Shown: piece after piece, positions 2,812 through 9,208 of the stretch | Layout of the letters: each line of letters begins with the position of its first letter | Position numbering within the stretch: position 1 is the stretch's first letter | IMG/VR virus record: IMGVR_UViG_3300009183_000438 | Span: 1-20,565 of that record | Strand: one strand, 5' to 3' | From: a virus | DNA: 20,565 bases | Position numbers and translations under genes: made by a program | The notes under the pieces: generated by a model | The model's database searches: none | What the model was told of the DNA's origin: nothing | The model's input: the letters and a program-made list of their open reading frames with translations, nothing else

Positions 2812-3450
2812 ATGATTATTTCTAATGATCTAAAGTTTCTTTTTATTGGTAATCCAAAAACTGGCACTTCAACAGCAAGATATGTTTTAAGACCGCATGG
2901 ATATTATATTTGTGATGCATTTTCTACAGCACCATCACACCATTTAACAGTTGATGAGTGTTTTAATTTACTATCAAATCAGAAACCGCAATTTAATCCT
3001 GCGCAACTAGAAAAAATATATGTTTTTTGGAGAGATCCAATTAAACGATTTATCTCAGCATATAATCATGTAAAATCAACAACAACTGGCAAGGGACTTG
3101 AGCTGTTGATAAAATATAGACCAAATGTCTTGATTAACAATAATACAGATATAGATCCAGAAAAACTTCTGCTCGACAGAATTAATGCACCATATAAAAG
3201 ATATGAAGATCCTATTGCTCAAATTTTAACCAAACAATCAAAGTGGATTATACCAAGTAATATTACACAAGTTTTAAACTTTGATGATTATGAAAACAAT
3301 TTAAAAATTGTCGCCAATTCTTTCGGAGTTGATGTTTCTACTTTACAAATCCCAGTTCTAAATGAAAGTTCAGAAACAGGTCTAGAAATTACTGGATCTT
3401 TAGAAACATTGGTTAGAGATTACTATGCCGAGGATTTTACGCTGATTTAA
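2812..3450 (+). CDS. Sulfotransferase family protein (PAPS-dependent)
   Basis: A 212-residue protein with the two cofactor signatures of cytosolic/Golgi-type sulfotransferases. The 5'-phosphosulfate loop is NPKTGTST (residues 14-21) straight after a hydrophobic strand. The 3'-phosphate site is in VFWRDPIKRFISAY (71-84), with Arg74 and Ser82 as the usual contacts. His43/His44 in SHHLT is a candidate catalytic base, as in Sulfotransfer_2-type enzymes. The family transfers sulfate from PAPS to a sugar or tyrosine hydroxyl; the substrate here is unknown. No signal peptide or membrane segment is visible, so it should act in the host cytoplasm. It starts 4 nt after the fibre stop and is first in the five-gene cassette, suggesting co-transcription with the fibre. 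The gene looks more AT-rich than the capsid genes, compatible with later acquisition. Confidence 0.8.
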   Translation: MIISNDLKFLFIGNPKTGTSTARYVLRPHGYYICDAFSTAPSHHLTVDECFNLLSNQKPQFNPAQLEKIYVFWRDPIKRFISAYNHVKSTTTGKGLELLIKYRPNVLINNNTDIDPEKLLLDRINAPYKRYEDPIAQILTKQSKWIIPSNITQVLNFDDYENNLKIVANSFGVDVSTLQIPVLNESSETGLEITGSLETLVRDYYAEDFTLI

Positions 3451-3466: not shown

Positions 3467-3487
3467 ATACCATTGAAGTGAGTGTTT

Positions 3488-4483
3488 ATGAAAATTCATG
3501 TTTTAGGGAATCCAAGAAATCCCACTGGTTTAATGAACCGTATTGACCCCTTCGCGGTTCATACATACAAATATATCAAGCATCTATCACCTTACTTTAA
3601 GATGATACACTATGGTATTCCAGTTGCGCAAGTAAACTGTGTTCATGTTGATATAAACACCGACCCATACGATATTCGAGGCTTTAATGAAAAGGCTGGC
3701 GCTGAAATAAAGAAACGCGCAGAAGCTGGTGATATTATTGTTTGCTTTTATGGAGTAGATAATAAACTCGCATGCGATATGAACCCTTCTTGCAAAATCG
3801 TCGAACCATCTATTGGATATCGCGCCAACGGAACTTTTGCGCCATATCGAGTTTTCACTTCTTATGCGCAAATGCATATGTTCTACGGTCATAGCGATAT
3901 GCTTATGAATCCATCATGGTTCGATGCAGTGATCCCTAATCCATTTACAATTAGTGAGTTTGATTTCGTAGATAATAAAGAAGATTATTTTCTTTACTTT
4001 GGTCGCGTGTGTCCAGAAAAAGGCGTTGATCTAGCAATACAAGCAACGAAAAAAACGGGAAAGAGGCTTATTATTGCTGGTCCAGGATCATTAACAGATA
4101 TAGGTTATAGTTCAACCCCAGATCATGTAGAGATGCTCGGTTATGTGGGTCCTGAGAAAAGAAAAGAACTCATGGGAAAGGCGAAAGCACTTTTAGGTTT
4201 AACATATTATGTTGAGCCGTTTGGTAATATGGTCATTGAAGCTAACCTCTGCGGAACACCCACTATCACTACAGATTGGGGTGGATTTTCTGAAACTGTT
4301 TTGGAAGGAAAAACTGGATATAGAATCAGAGATTTTAAATCACTATTAACAGCAATAGAAGCTATTGACAAGATTCAACCAATTAATTGTAGGAATTGGG
4401 GATTAAACTTCTCCGATGAAGAGGTGCACTATAAACATCGTTTATATTTGAATCGAGTAATTGAGAATAATTTCTATGCGTAA
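3488..4483 (+). CDS. Glycosyltransferase, GT4 family (GT-B fold)
   Basis: A 331-residue retaining-type glycosyltransferase that should move a sugar from an NDP-sugar donor to an acceptor. The C-terminal Rossmann half is typical: FGRVCPEKG (171-179) for the donor phosphate region, the IIAGPGS strand-loop (195-201), and the EX7E motif Glu243...Glu251 in EPFGNMVIE, followed by GTPTITTDWGG and the E-G-K-T-G-Y element. The N-terminal half, which chooses the acceptor, is less conserved. I chose ATG 3488 over the in-frame GTG at 3482 because a GAAGTGAG stretch lies at suitable distance and MKIHVLG is a normal start for the first beta strand. No membrane segment is seen. Its 3' end overlaps the next gene by 8 nt. 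Fibre glycosylation is a possible role, but a host-surface or DNA-base target cannot be excluded. Confidence 0.85.
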   Translation: MKIHVLGNPRNPTGLMNRIDPFAVHTYKYIKHLSPYFKMIHYGIPVAQVNCVHVDINTDPYDIRGFNEKAGAEIKKRAEAGDIIVCFYGVDNKLACDMNPSCKIVEPSIGYRANGTFAPYRVFTSYAQMHMFYGHSDMLMNPSWFDAVIPNPFTISEFDFVDNKEDYFLYFGRVCPEKGVDLAIQATKKTGKRLIIAGPGSLTDIGYSSTPDHVEMLGYVGPEKRKELMGKAKALLGLTYYVEPFGNMVIEANLCGTPTITTDWGGFSETVLEGKTGYRIRDFKSLLTAIEAIDKIQPINCRNWGLNFSDEEVHYKHRLYLNRVIENNFYA

Positions 4484-5228
4484 ACTGATTATTGTTGGAT
4501 CTGTTATTCAAACTCGAAAAGACGCTCCTCTGACTTATAGCCCAACTAGAACTGCCTTTTCTGATGAGGAAAGATTGCGCCATACTGTTTATTCAATTTC
4601 TGCTCTAAGAGACAGACATCCTGATACGGATATTGTATTGGTGGATGCATCAGATGACCCTAAAGATTATAGACAAATTTTTGCTTTTTTGAATGTGGTT
4701 TATGTTTGGCTTCAAGATATTTCAACAGAAACTGCAAATATAGTAAGAACTCATCCGAATAAAAGTGTTTGTGAAGTTCTGTTACTGAATACATATATTA
4801 AAGTCAACAAAGCTAAAATTAAAACCTATGATTATATTATCAAAGGAACTGGCCGATATTCATTGATGAACTTTGATAATTCGTTATTCACACCAGAAAA
4901 CACAGATAAGATATTCTTCAAAAAACCATTTGAGTATGAATGGAATGACGCTTGGCGATATTCTTTTGTTGATAAGAGATCAGAACAAGGTGATAATAAA
5001 CTTCGACAGTATTGTACAGTTGTTTTTGGGTTTGGTATAGAACATCTAGATAAGTTTATAGATATGTTTGATGTCATAGGTGATCTTTTACAGAATGATG
5101 CAATGAAACATTATGATATCGAGACATTAATGTATTATTTTACAAGATTTTTTACTGATAAAATTATCGAAACAGATTGGCGTGTTTTAGGGTGGGATGG
5201 TGTCACTAATCGATTAATGTATTATTGA
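4476..5228 (+). CDS. Putative glycosyltransferase-like protein
   Basis: A 250-residue protein I cannot place in a named family with certainty. The opening RKLIIVGSV strand, the later TDIVLVDAS (51-59) and the YDYIIKGTGRY segment (118-128) resemble GT-A-type transferases in which a K-x-(T)-G-R-Y element follows the nucleotide-sugar strand. HYDIET (212-217) in the C-terminal part could hold an acidic catalytic residue. No signal peptide or membrane helix is visible. The start at ATG 4476 is preferred over TTG 4461: it overlaps the stop of the upstream gene by 8 nt (translational coupling) and has GAGA about 10 nt upstream. It lies between a GT4 enzyme and an oxygenase, so a sugar-transfer role in the same pathway is likely. 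Sugar-modifying activity of another kind is possible. Confidence 0.55.
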   Translation: MRKLIIVGSVIQTRKDAPLTYSPTRTAFSDEERLRHTVYSISALRDRHPDTDIVLVDASDDPKDYRQIFAFLNVVYVWLQDISTETANIVRTHPNKSVCEVLLLNTYIKVNKAKIKTYDYIIKGTGRYSLMNFDNSLFTPENTDKIFFKKPFEYEWNDAWRYSFVDKRSEQGDNKLRQYCTVVFGFGIEHLDKFIDMFDVIGDLLQNDAMKHYDIETLMYYFTRFFTDKIIETDWRVLGWDGVTNRLMYY

Positions 5229-5237
5229 GGTTATTAT

Positions 5238-5786
5238 ATGCAAACTAATGTGATTATTATTGATGACTTTTATAGTAATCCTGATGAAGTCAGAAATTAT
5301 GCTCTCAATCAACCATTTGAAGTGAAGGGAAACTATCCTGGATTGAGAACAGCGCCTTGGCTCGACCAAGGATTAAAAGCCACGATCGCCAACATAGTAT
5401 TAGCTGCTGGCGGAAGAGTAACTGACTGGCTGGAAAACTCTGGCTACGATGGTGCATTTCAAATTTGCACCGCACAGGATAGAACTTGGATCCATGCTGA
5501 TAGTTATAATACTTGGGCTGGTGTTTGCTATTTAACTCCAAACGCTCCGCTGTCTGCAGGAACTGCCTTATATCGACACAAAGCCTCTGGTGAATATTTC
5601 AAGACCACCGACGATCATGAAGGCTACGACTATACTAAATGGGAAATGGTTGACTATATTGCAAACAAGTACAATCGTCTGGTTCTATATCGCGGTAATA
5701 TGTTTCATGCATCGATGGATTATTTTGGCAATAACTTTCAAAACGGTCGTCTTTTCCAAACATTCTTCTTCAACACAGAATTCTGA
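5238..5786 (+). CDS. 2OG-Fe(II) oxygenase-like protein (DUF6445-like)
   Basis: A 182-residue protein with the layout of a small 2-oxoglutarate/Fe(II) dioxygenase. The iron ligands would be His86 and Asp88 in WIHADSY (84-90) and His157 in GNMFHASMDYFG (153-164). Arg171 in NGRLFQTFFF is well placed to bind 2-oxoglutarate. The YLTPNAPLSAGTALYRHK stretch (98-115) is typical of the DUF6445 group found in phages and marine bacteria. The N-terminal IIIDDFYSNPDEVRNYAL is also shared with prolyl-hydroxylase-like relatives. Such enzymes hydroxylate protein side chains, nucleobases or small molecules; the substrate is not known for this group. It lies inside the glycosyltransferase cassette and ends in TGATG, so its stop overlaps the next start. 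A collagen-like, proline-rich fibre encoded 2.4 kb upstream makes protein hydroxylation an attractive guess. Confidence 0.75.
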   Translation: MQTNVIIIDDFYSNPDEVRNYALNQPFEVKGNYPGLRTAPWLDQGLKATIANIVLAAGGRVTDWLENSGYDGAFQICTAQDRTWIHADSYNTWAGVCYLTPNAPLSAGTALYRHKASGEYFKTTDDHEGYDYTKWEMVDYIANKYNRLVLYRGNMFHASMDYFGNNFQNGRLFQTFFFNTEF

Positions 5787-6532
5787 TGAAAATCCTTCAT
5801 GTAATTTTCTCGACTAATCGCCTCAGGTATCTAACGAAAACGTTAGAATCATTAAAAAATCTGGACTACGGTGATCATCAAGTCACAAAAATGCTTGTAG
5901 ATGACTATCCTCGCACCAGAAACGATAAGATTTTTGAGTTATTAGGGAAAGTTCATGGGTTTCAATTAGTTCTAAACGAAAAGAATTTCGGGCTTTCTGT
6001 GACTTGGTCTTGGTTGTTTGATTGGTTAAAAACGCAGGATTACGACTATGTTCTTCATCAGGAGGACGACGTGGTTCTTTTGGAGCCGATTAAAATTGAT
6101 GATCTAATTACAGTATTAGAATCAGATGAGAAAATGGCTTCAGTTGTTCTTCATCGCCAGCCGTGGTACTTCCATGAGCAGCCCTCTAAAATTGAAGAAA
6201 CTGATATAAAAATTAATCAATTTTATTATCGCAAAAATACTGCGGTTTTCTCCCCAATGTTCTCGCTTTATCGAAAAAATATAGTCAACTACCCTTTCAA
6301 AGATTACTGGAATTTCAATATCAATGAAGGCATGATAATGATTTATCTAGAATTTTATTATCAAATGTACTCTGCTGTTCTTAAAAATTACAACGGAGGT
6401 CATATTATAGAGCATATTGGTGAGGAAACTGTCGGTATTAGACTCCTTCCGGGAGAGCCGAACCAAGAACTTTTTGCTCATATGGACCCGAATCGGATTT
6501 ACACCTCTCGAGAAGGTAAACTTGTAGAGTGA
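5786..6532 (+). CDS. GT-A family glycosyltransferase (GT2-like)
   Basis: A 248-residue protein with a GT-A nucleotide-sugar fold signature: the N-terminal KILHVIFSTNRLRYLTKTLESL (2-23), Asp39-Asp40 at the end of the next strand, a NEKNFGLSVTWSWLFDWL region (64-81), and the metal-binding acidic motif QEDDVVL (92-98) that stands in for DXD. GIRLLPGEPN (about 218-227) may close over the donor. No transmembrane helix is seen, unlike many GT2 polymerases, so a soluble transferase is likely. Its ATG overlaps the oxygenase stop (TGATG), implying coupled translation. It is the last gene of the modification cassette; gene 13 follows after 30 nt with its own late-promoter box. Acceptor and donor sugars cannot be read from the sequence. 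Confidence 0.75.
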   Translation: MKILHVIFSTNRLRYLTKTLESLKNLDYGDHQVTKMLVDDYPRTRNDKIFELLGKVHGFQLVLNEKNFGLSVTWSWLFDWLKTQDYDYVLHQEDDVVLLEPIKIDDLITVLESDEKMASVVLHRQPWYFHEQPSKIEETDIKINQFYYRKNTAVFSPMFSLYRKNIVNYPFKDYWNFNINEGMIMIYLEFYYQMYSAVLKNYNGGHIIEHIGEETVGIRLLPGEPNQELFAHMDPNRIYTSREGKLVE

Positions 6533-6539
6533 CTAAATA
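6532..6539 (+). promoter_or_regulatory. Late promoter box (ACTAAATA) before gene 13
   Basis: ACTAAATA overlaps the last base of the GT-A stop codon and lies 23 nt before the gene 13 start. The same octamer precedes three other late genes here. T4 late promoters consist only of a TATAAATA-like -10 element read by gp55/gp33/gp45. Confidence 0.6.
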
Positions 6540-6562
6540 TAGAATACTCAGAGAGGTTCCAG

Positions 6563-7321
6563 ATGGCACAACCTTACACTCGCGCAACACTTAAAGACTA
6601 TTGCCTTCGCAGACTAGGCTTCCCAGTCGTAGATATTAACGTCGATGACGATCAATTAGAAGATCGAATCGATGATGCTCTGCAATTGTTTAACGAATTC
6701 CATTACAATGGAACAGAGAGAGTTTATCTGGCTCAGGCAGTAACGAGCGCAGATATTAGCAATCAGTATGTAAATCTTGCTGATTCTATTATTGGAATCA
6801 CTCGAGTATTCCCGATGCTCGGGTCGACTATGGGTTCTACATCGTCGGCAGGTTTTAATATGTTCGATATTAATTACCAGTTGCGCTTAAACGATTTCTA
6901 TAACTTAACTTCTTCGTCGTATACCTATTATGTGATCGCAAGAGAGCATTTGGCGATGCTTGATATGATTGTCACTGGACTTCCTCCATTTACATTCAAT
7001 AAACATACTCATAGACTAAACGTGCAAACCGATTGGAACAAATATATTAGTGGCTCGTATCTATGTTTTGAGGGGCATAGAATTGTCGACCAAGACACAT
7101 ACGAAGGTGTCTTTAAGGAGACTTGGGTCAAGAACTATACCTCACAACTATTCAAGCGTCAATGGGGCGAGAATCTAAAGAAGTATGGCAATTATGTTCT
7201 TCCTGGTGGTCTAGTCATCAACGGACAAGCTATTTGGGACGAGGCATCTGGTGAAATTGAAAAATTAGAAACGCATCTCCGTGAAACTTATGAAGAACCA
7301 GCTGGATTTATTGTAGGCTAA
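6563..7321 (+). CDS. 13: Neck protein gp13
   Basis: A 252-residue homologue of T4 gp13, which forms the neck ring with gp14 and seals the filled head before the tail joins. The N-terminal block (RATLKDYCLRRLG, then DDQLEDRIDDALQLFNEFHY at about 29-48) is the conserved signature of this family in marine T4-like phages. It is shorter than T4 gp13 (309 aa), as in that group. A GAGAGG ribosome site lies upstream of the ATG. The stop is 1 nt before the gene 14 start, and the order 13-14-15 is that of T4, which supports the call beyond sequence likeness. Confidence 0.85.
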   Translation: MAQPYTRATLKDYCLRRLGFPVVDINVDDDQLEDRIDDALQLFNEFHYNGTERVYLAQAVTSADISNQYVNLADSIIGITRVFPMLGSTMGSTSSAGFNMFDINYQLRLNDFYNLTSSSYTYYVIAREHLAMLDMIVTGLPPFTFNKHTHRLNVQTDWNKYISGSYLCFEGHRIVDQDTYEGVFKETWVKNYTSQLFKRQWGENLKKYGNYVLPGGLVINGQAIWDEASGEIEKLETHLRETYEEPAGFIVG

Positions 7322-7322
7322 A

Positions 7323-8210
7323 ATGGGAACTAGCGTATATTTTAACAACCAAAGAGCAACTCAAGAACAGTTGCTCCTTGAAGATTTAATCATCGAATCT
7401 ATTAAGAATCATGGAATCGATGTCTATTACATGCCACGCGAATCTCAATCATCAACCGATGAATTATTTGGTGATGATCCAGTTAAAACTTATAGAAGTG
7501 CCATCAAACTTGAGATGTATCTTGAATCAGTTCAAGGTTATGAAGGAAATAAAGAATTCTTTGGAAAGTTTGGTTTAGAAATTCAAGAAACTGCTCGCCT
7601 GTGTATTGCTCGTAGAACTTATGAAAAACTAGTAACAAGTAGATTCCCAAGCACTCACCATACTCCAAAAGAAGGCGATTTAATTTATCTTCCAATTCAA
7701 TATAAACTTATGGAAATTAAGTTTGTTGAAGATGAAAAAAACTTCTTCCAGTTGGGTCGTGACTCTAAGAACCCATACATGTATGGGATATCGATGGAAG
7801 CCTTCAAGTATAATGGCGAACTATTGCAAACTGGTGTCAGCGAGATTGATCGTATTGGTAATATCCAAGCATACGCAACAGATCTAACGTTGACAGCTGG
7901 CGGAACTAAGACATACACATTATATGAAACAGTGTATCAAGGTGCATCACTTGCTGCCGCAACTGCTAAAGCAGTTGTTGCTGGCTGGAATAAGCCAAAT
8001 AGAGCATTAAAAATTCGTAACGTATTTGGAGCATTTGTCGCTAATACTAATATTATTGGCGCATCTAGTGGTGCTATATGGAGTCTTGCTTCTACACCAG
8101 ATTTACTTACAAACTCCAATTACGAAAACATTGAAGATAATTCACGTATAGAAACTGAGGGAGTTAATGTTATTGACTTCAGTGAAATCAATCCATTTGG
8201 TGAACCGTAA
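7323..8210 (+). CDS. 14: Neck protein gp14
   Basis: A 295-residue homologue of T4 gp14 (256 aa), the partner of gp13 in the head-tail neck. The N-terminal SVYFNNQRATQEQLLLEDLI (4-23) and the GIDVYYMPRE element (30-39) are typical. The family end IDFSEINPFGEP is intact at the C-terminus. Between them, about residues 185-262, lies an added beta-rich module (YETVYQGAS ... NIIGASSGAIW) that resembles one at the end of gp15 in this genome and probably explains the extra length. The gene overlaps gene 15 by one base (TAATG), implying coupled translation. Confidence 0.85.
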   Translation: MGTSVYFNNQRATQEQLLLEDLIIESIKNHGIDVYYMPRESQSSTDELFGDDPVKTYRSAIKLEMYLESVQGYEGNKEFFGKFGLEIQETARLCIARRTYEKLVTSRFPSTHHTPKEGDLIYLPIQYKLMEIKFVEDEKNFFQLGRDSKNPYMYGISMEAFKYNGELLQTGVSEIDRIGNIQAYATDLTLTAGGTKTYTLYETVYQGASLAAATAKAVVAGWNKPNRALKIRNVFGAFVANTNIIGASSGAIWSLASTPDLLTNSNYENIEDNSRIETEGVNVIDFSEINPFGEP

Positions 8211-9208
8211 TGTTTGGGCAGTCGCATTTCTATCATAGAGTTATTCGAAAGATGGTTGTTTCTTTTGGAACAATGTTTAACGACATTCGCCTTGTTCGCT
8301 ATAATAAAGCAGGCACGCAAGAGATTGAGCGTATTAATGTTCCATTGATGTATTCACAGAAAGAAAAGTTCTATCAACGTATTACTCAAGATCCAGAGTT
8401 GACTAAAGAAACTGCAATAACTCTTCCAAGAATGGGATTTGAGCTAACAAGTATTACATATGATCCATTGCGCAAAAGAACACTGTTTGCCGAGAGTTAT
8501 TCAGCAAATGATTCTACATCAATAAAAGCAATTAGAACTACACCATATAATTTTGATTTTACATTAAGCATTTATGTTCGTAACGTTGAAGATGGGACTC
8601 AGATCATAGAGCAGATTCTTCCGTTCTTCAATCCAGACTATACAATGACAATTGACTTTATTGGATTGACAGATCAAAAAACCGACGTTCCATTTATTCT
8701 TCAAAATGTAATTCAAAACGTTGAGGATATTGGCGGTGCAGACCCAACTAGAGTTATTGTTTGGACTTTGACCTTTACCGCAAAAGGTTATATGTACGGT
8801 CCGATTGTCTCTAGAGATATTATTCGTAAGGCTACGGCAAATACATATAATGATACGTTCTCATTACTGAATAAAAGATCAATTACTGTCGCTTCTGGTT
8901 CTGGCACGTACCAAGCAGGTGAAATTGTTTATGAAGGGAGAACACTTAATACGTCAAATGTTACGGCGAAAGTTGATTCTTGGTCGCCATCAACAAATAC
9001 ACTAATCATTACTGATACGAGCGGTATTCTTAAGGCTGGAAGATATCTGTTTGGTGTATCTTCAAATGCTGCGTATAATATTGCTTCTTTTGCAAGCAAT
9101 GATAATCAATTAACAAATCTAACTGTGATACCAAATCCAAACACAGCAAATGCGAATACAGCATTTGGATTTGACACTACAGTTGAGGAATTTCCTAATA
9201 TAACATGA
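8210..9208 (+). CDS. 15: Tail sheath stabilizer / completion protein gp15
   Basis: A 332-residue homologue of T4 gp15 (272 aa), which caps the finished tail on top of sheath and tube and binds the neck. The N-terminal FGQSHFYHRVIRKMVVSFG (2-20), the INVPLMYSQKEKFYQR segment and TLPRMGFELTSITYDP are the conserved core. From about residue 225 there is an additional module (GEIVYEGRTL ... YLFGVSSNAAYNIAS) like the one in gp14, followed by a low-complexity Asn/Thr tail. The start ATG shares its A with the gene 14 stop, and the stop overlaps the gene 16 start (ATGA). Confidence 0.85.
   Translation: MFGQSHFYHRVIRKMVVSFGTMFNDIRLVRYNKAGTQEIERINVPLMYSQKEKFYQRITQDPELTKETAITLPRMGFELTSITYDPLRKRTLFAESYSANDSTSIKAIRTTPYNFDFTLSIYVRNVEDGTQIIEQILPFFNPDYTMTIDFIGLTDQKTDVPFILQNVIQNVEDIGGADPTRVIVWTLTFTAKGYMYGPIVSRDIIRKATANTYNDTFSLLNKRSITVASGSGTYQAGEIVYEGRTLNTSNVTAKVDSWSPSTNTLIITDTSGILKAGRYLFGVSSNAAYNIASFASNDNQLTNLTVIPNPNTANANTAFGFDTTVEEFPNIT

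Follow-up and report, generated by a model that had tools for sequence, protein, structure and literature searches.

Gene content of the fibre-to-neck region

The window (the whole stretch of DNA analysed, 20,565 nucleotides) is the fibre-to-capsid segment of a freshwater T4-like myophage, in which the fibre and gp13 are identified by profile; the rest we take, from gene order and sequence, to be gp14, gp15, terminase, sheath, tube, portal, protease, scaffold and major capsid. The genes discussed here lie on the plus strand. At the left edge, a collagen-like tail fibre whose 5' end falls beyond the window (positions 3 to 2807) carries Gly-X-Y repeats at about 3-500, followed by Ala/Asn/Thr-rich repeats, and is a candidate substrate. 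Downstream of it come a sulfotransferase-like protein (2812-3450; PF03567 at its threshold, PHROG 3347), which is accessory and found mainly in the closest relatives of the window; GT1, a GT-B glycosyltransferase (3482-4483; PF00534, PHROG 3408); orf250, a GT6-like glycosyltransferase of GT-A fold according to its predicted structure (4476-5228; an alternative TTG start at 4461 would give 255 amino acids); a DUF6445 Fe(II)/2-oxoglutarate (2OG) oxygenase (5238-5786); GT2, a family-2 glycosyltransferase (5786-6532; PF00535); and a gp13-type neck protein (6563-7321; PHROG 211), which is outside the cassette described below and served as the anchor for locus comparison. The sulfotransferase-like gene adjoins collagen-like fibres in the nearest relatives, and also in L288, a cassette-free locus with a Pro-poor collagen.

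The 3' end of GT1 overlaps orf250 by 8 bases, a gap of 9 bases separates orf250 from the oxygenase, and the oxygenase stop and GT2 start overlap by a single base (TGATG). These overlaps suggest translational coupling of the cassette genes. The earlier note had placed the oxygenase directly beside the fibre, but it lies 2.4 kb away, with the sulfotransferase-like gene, GT1 and orf250 in between. It had also missed the three flanking glycosyltransferases, and a role on sugars, or in hydroxylation followed by glycosylation, is no less relevant than the fibre itself.

For orf250, neither Pfam nor PHROG gave a significant match; a search with the single sequence returned only a known near-copy, and an alignment-based search returned more. 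Its model (pLDDT 93.8) shows a GT-A fold, with BoGT6a (Z 14.6) and bovine alpha-1,3-galactosyltransferase (Z 14.0) as structural matches. On the strength of this model, orf250 likely represents an undescribed glycosyltransferase family of T4-like phages.

The sample of loci was gathered with cassette genes or gp13 as queries and counted by distinct proteins, and it shows order, not prevalence. Immediately downstream of orf250 stands the oxygenase in 66 of 67 cases, with L010, where the orf250 frame is broken, as the exception. GT2 in turn comes after the oxygenase in 65 of 66, L045 being the one without GT2, and GT1 precedes orf250 in all 53 cases with room for it. Judged by gene order, GT1-orf250-oxygenase-GT2 is a tightly coupled four-gene cassette, with the oxygenase embedded among three predicted glycosyltransferases. 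L073 (record G012), a 52 kb fragment, also has the full cassette but yielded no collagen, a point against a collagen substrate. Another full cassette, together with gp13 and gp14 homologues, is present in an Actinomycetes MAG (L083, JANXME010000142.1), evidently a phage contig placed in a bacterial bin and a possible hint of the host. As for psbA, a possible host indicator, it was absent from the fragments of near relatives and present only in the record of L080, a locus with a distant homologue.

Family, active site and predicted fold of the oxygenase

The oxygenase gene spans exactly 5238 to 5786, an uninterrupted frame of 182 amino acids that opens with ATG, and its putative ribosome-binding site, GAGG, overlaps the stop codon of the upstream gene. 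The ligand set claimed in the earlier note, His86-x-Asp88, His157 and Arg171, is found at those positions (His-Arg spacing of 14). Its assignment to DUF6445 also holds, with a score of 59 bits for PF20043 at a cut-off of 24; PF13759, a related 2OG-Fe(II) oxygenase profile, gives 15.6 bits, under its cut-off of 27. Neither PF13640 (prolyl 4-hydroxylase / 2OG-FeII_Oxy_3) nor phytanoyl-CoA dioxygenase appears among the Pfam matches at E up to 1, and profile-profile comparison with neighbouring PF13640 oxygenases gave nothing. A relation to phytanoyl-CoA dioxygenase may exist at the level of the fold, as the VIA-align table has no entry for that family. Both the domain family to which the protein belongs and the Fe(II)/2OG superfamily are known. 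That the family lacks an established substrate is in keeping with the limited literature searched, where no paper naming DUF6445 was found.

From the best 80 of 162 viral relatives, 45 distinct sequences were obtained, and H86, D88, H157 and R171 are invariant in all of them, as are W84-I85, W93-A94, N146-R147 and R171-L172-F173-Q174. A wider alignment of 23 sequences, which goes down to 26-39% identity and includes marine cyanophage, pelagiphage and MAG homologues, likewise shows no variation at H86, D88 and R171; most of its members retain the distal His, which lies one column off in S-SSM7 and Sf-FS3. Conservation of these predicted active-site residues is far beyond chance.

Searches of PDB sequences with the oxygenase and with an 18-sequence profile returned no significant match to any chain; only fold comparison places the protein. 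The AlphaFold2 model, built on 18 window-type sequences, has a pLDDT of 76.5 and a pTM of 0.75, and contains the double-stranded beta-helix on which, as set beforehand, the oxygenase reading was to stand or fall. In the model H86 closes strand 84-86, H157 lies within strand 156-158 and R171 opens strand 171-180, the strands on which they are expected, and from these positions we infer that the HxD...H triad may cluster in space. Foldseek ranks Fe/2OG enzymes highest, namely PHD2, OGFOD1, OFD1, PPHD, HygX and SptF (E of about 2e-4 to 1e-3). VIA-align 2, where rows within 1 Z count as ties, gives PiuC (Z 12.0), PHD2 (11.5), P. putida P4H (11.3) and OGFOD1 (11.3), with vCPH lower (10.4); the top match, with Z up to 12.0, covers 146 residues at an rmsd of 3.0. 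PHD2/EGLN1, P. putida PPHD, OGFOD1 and PBCV-1 vCPH share with the oxygenase the fold (Z 10.4-11.5) and the HxD...H triad, and the known enzymes use protein proline, but they are only 9-15% identical to it in sequence. PHD2, PPHD and OGFOD1 hydroxylate prolines of non-collagen proteins. As modelled, the fold of the oxygenase is settled, but it does not fix the substrate.

Taken together, the invariant active site and the predicted fold indicate that the gene product is very probably an active Fe(II)/2OG oxygenase of prolyl-hydroxylase fold, in agreement with the earlier prediction of an intact enzyme and not a remnant. A structural role as a "minor coat protein" is the reading offered by PHROG 1644, which carries that label and matches the oxygenase over its full length (E 8e-35), and by RefSeq product names; given the complete, invariant active site and the oxygenase fold, such a role, or a degenerate enzyme, is extremely improbable. 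The label is probably wrong and likely a propagated error, under which DUF6445 proteins are widespread in T4-like phages. The same name stands on NC_015287, NC_020484, NC_006883 and other RefSeq phages.

Proline in the collagen-like fibres

The visible Gly-X-Y stretch of the window fibre comprises 53 triplets, with proline at 30 X and 0 Y positions and no Lys, which bears out the earlier observation that fibre proline is confined to X. Animal C-P4H, like the role proposed below for the oxygenase, concerns collagen-like Gly-X-Y, but it acts on Y prolines, which the visible stretch lacks, and carries a Lys at the place of Arg171. With 30 X against 0 Y prolines in that stretch, a canonical animal-type, Y-specific collagen P4H was rejected as an analogue. 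The earlier note had gone further and argued that a canonical prolyl-4-hydroxylase would have no target. The lack of Y proline in the visible stretch stands behind this argument, but it is too strict: the P4H of B. anthracis, which would also act on collagen-like Gly-X-Y, is described in a passage of PMC8968730 (citing Schnicker and Dey 2016) as hydroxylating both X and Y prolines, and therefore a Y-preferring enzyme would not necessarily be without a target.

The fibre side was scored in loci anchored on gp13, of which 54 have Gly-X-Y repeats. In these fibres the Pro fraction, X and Y positions combined, is 0.19-0.76, in most cases 0.59-0.76, where the oxygenase is present (38 distinct loci), and 0.00-0.22 where it is not (at most 0.07 in 14 of 16 loci). 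With the cassette, X-position proline amounts to 27-76%, except that one lineage has instead 19%, in Y. The collagen-like repeats of cassette-free relatives are genuine, with the pattern Gly-Ala/Val/Ser-Gln, and the contrast is therefore one of Ala/Val/Ser versus Pro in X specifically. Across whole records, the share of Pro-X among Gly-X-Gln triplets is 0.24-1.00 in the 14 with the oxygenase and 0.00-0.19 in the 12 without. In this phage group X-position proline tracks the cassette, and its candidacy as the substrate, raised in the earlier note, gains support.

Several simpler accounts of this pattern were rejected. GC content does not cause the proline difference, being the same with (0.405) and without (0.401) the oxygenase in the gp13-anchored loci and showing no correlation. 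Generic 2OG oxygenases are not the correlate either, since PF13640 oxygenases occur in records with and without X-proline. Physical linkage of cassette and fibre is not a full explanation, since distant collagens show the same Pro-X pattern: L041, L044 and L045 lack collagen in the adjacent fibre, but Pro-X-rich collagens are encoded elsewhere in the same records (Pro-X in 56/85 triplets of L312, 181/288 of L310 and 94/197 of L305, the last about 65-80 kb from the cassette).

These loci also bear on another possibility, namely that a different residue of a fibre or virion protein (for instance Asn, Asp, Thr or Gln in the Ala/Asn/Thr-rich repeats) is hydroxylated to become the sugar acceptor, and that the proline link is a by-product of shared ancestry. 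The window fibre has long Asn/Thr-rich repeats, the adjacent fibres of the cassette-bearing L041 and L045 have such repeats and no collagen, and the independent proline contrasts are few. However, this account leaves unexplained why collagens distant from the cassette are rich in Pro-X, and we regard it as rather unlikely.

The weight of the association is limited by relatedness. When the 54 scored loci are placed on a gp13 tree, only 3 label changes are needed (bootstrap 2-4) and well-supported branches force only 1; the naive p-values of 1e-8 and 2e-5 overstate the association, because they ignore relatedness and about three changes are independent. The available contrasts all agree but are few (L223 within a cassette-free clade, L151 versus L288, the main clades), and support for pairing L151 with L288 on the gp13 tree is weak. 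Shared ancestry may be the source of the association. In addition, the oxygenase is statistically inseparable from its glycosyltransferases in the association with proline, and G017, a record scored as lacking the oxygenase, gives a marginal DUF6445 match of 25.7 bits. A further point against the proline reading is that X-position proline is common in bacterial collagens lacking hydroxylation, at 19% in all bacteria and 31% in Gram-positives (PMC8968730).

Individual loci also depart from the general pattern. In the cassette-bearing L049 (1-1971) and L050, an adjacent Gly-rich Gly-X-Y gene has proline at 0 X and 26-31 Y positions, the reverse of their relatives; in L051, a close relative of both, the collagens elsewhere in the contig are of the X type. 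A Gly-X-Y gene from a cassette-bearing record (L307) is Pro-poor, with X-position Pro in 11/500 triplets. A universal rule linking DUF6445 to proline is broken by the more distant phages DSL-LC02 and S-SCSM2R, whose Gly-X-Y repeats are Pro-poor (1/157 and 2/38 windows, respectively) despite DUF6445 proteins.

Proposed role and distant DUF6445 homologues

The findings presented here make it likely that the oxygenase is one step of a four-gene modification cassette shared with the three surrounding glycosyltransferases. In the model that we propose, the cassette would decorate the phage's own virion fibres. We favour, tentatively and short of calling it probable, an X-position prolyl hydroxylase acting together with the glycosyltransferases on collagen-like fibres: the oxygenase would convert the X-position prolines of the Gly-Pro-Gln repeats to hydroxyproline, which would stabilise the triple helix and/or accept sugars from GT1, orf250 and GT2. 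A complete phage hydroxyproline-glycosylation system, in which DUF6445 would hydroxylate the X-prolines of collagen-like tail fibres and dedicated glycosyltransferases would extend the hydroxyl, is a more doubtful proposition. If true, prokaryotes would have their own version of the hydroxyproline glycosylation of collagen and plant type, but with the position preference reversed (X, not Y). Neither the cassette nor the X-proline link was found in the literature searched, whose coverage was limited, and hydroxylation and glycosylation by phages of their own fibres is a largely unexplored subject. Should the X-proline link be causal, the cassette would constitute a compact four-gene system whose substrate can be tested, bearing on fibre stability, host recognition and bacterial collagen engineering.

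By analogy, the closest functional parallel is the modification of collagen in mimivirus, where, according to passages of PMC8968730 (citing Luther 2011) and PMC9546862, a virus-encoded 2OG oxygenase and glycosyltransferases (the L230 lysyl hydroxylase/glycosyltransferase and R699) act on viral collagen. The window system differs in residue, gene layout and host: it belongs to a bacteriophage, its genes are separate, and the part of its collagen that is visible lacks Lys. Lysyl hydroxylation of the mimivirus type was rejected on this last ground.

The principal alternative to proline hydroxylation is that the oxygenase hydroxylates or oxidises a sugar, either a nucleotide sugar or a glycan built by the three glycosyltransferases, for subsequent transfer to the fibre, to another virion protein or to the host surface. 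The strict linkage to three glycosyltransferases is consistent with it, as is the presence of the aminoglycoside oxygenase HygX among the Foldseek matches. More distant homologues point in the same direction: the DUF6445 gene of L080 has as neighbours a GT2-like gene and one for a hexapeptide-repeat transferase, a type of enzyme that often acetylates sugars, and in S-SSM7 and Sf-FS3 a GT-oxygenase-GT25 order is found inside large sugar clusters, surrounded by nucleotide-sugar and glycosyltransferase genes. However, protein prolyl hydroxylases make up most of the best fold matches (even if fold does not fix substrate), X-proline tracks the cassette, and DUF6445 homologues without glycosyltransferases exist; a sugar substrate is conceivable but unlikely.

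Homologues of the latter kind are best seen in T4-like cyanophages, whose DUF6445/PHROG 1644 proteins (RefSeq product name "minor coat protein") are 25-43% identical to the window oxygenase, belong to the same family by profile and have the HxD and Arg in common with it, but differ in that many lie outside a glycosyltransferase cassette. Many are located away from glycosyltransferases, and many among non-structural genes; that some homologues are remote from both glycosyltransferases and fibres speaks against the favoured model. In L060, L063 and L074 the DUF6445 gene lies outside a cassette and beside another 2OG oxygenase, and in L079 its neighbours are a GT10-like gene and two more oxygenases. 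The settings among non-structural genes, together with fold matches to OGFOD1 and to PPHD bound to EF-Tu, would suit an intracellular host or phage target, either a translation factor, as for P. putida P4H on EF-Tu, or 2OG metabolism, with no role in fibres or sugars. In this regard, 2OG-related and DNA-repair roles have been proposed for cyanophage 2OG oxygenases (Sullivan et al. 2010; PMC3037559). In the lineage of the window, however, the gene is embedded and apparently coupled in a glycosyltransferase operon of the fibre-neck region, and an intracellular target is improbable, more so than a different fibre residue.

Other arrangements were observed around distant homologues. Some phages carry divergent DUF6445 paralogue pairs (L080, 7141-7722, with 37-39% identity to the window protein; second matches in records G006 and G007). 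In L084, a contig binned as a Poribacteria MAG, the DUF6445 gene comes after, and is overlapped by, a gene for a 1411-aa protein (3788-8576) with GT2, TPR_P4H-like, GT1 and methyltransferase domains, itself downstream of a collagen-like tail gene. This association with sugar and peptide enzymes, like the gene order in S-SSM7 and Sf-FS3, also speaks for the favoured model. In Synechococcus phage DSL-LC02 (L085), whose collagen-like genes are Gly-Thr-Gln rich and Pro-poor, a TPR-FkbM-radical SAM-SPASM protein (4794-7534) adjoins the DUF6445 protein, both being annotated as "FkbM family methyltransferase". Finally, Synechococcus phage S-CREM1 (L096, 224-5714) encodes eight annotated 2OG oxygenases in tandem, together with a JmjC protein.
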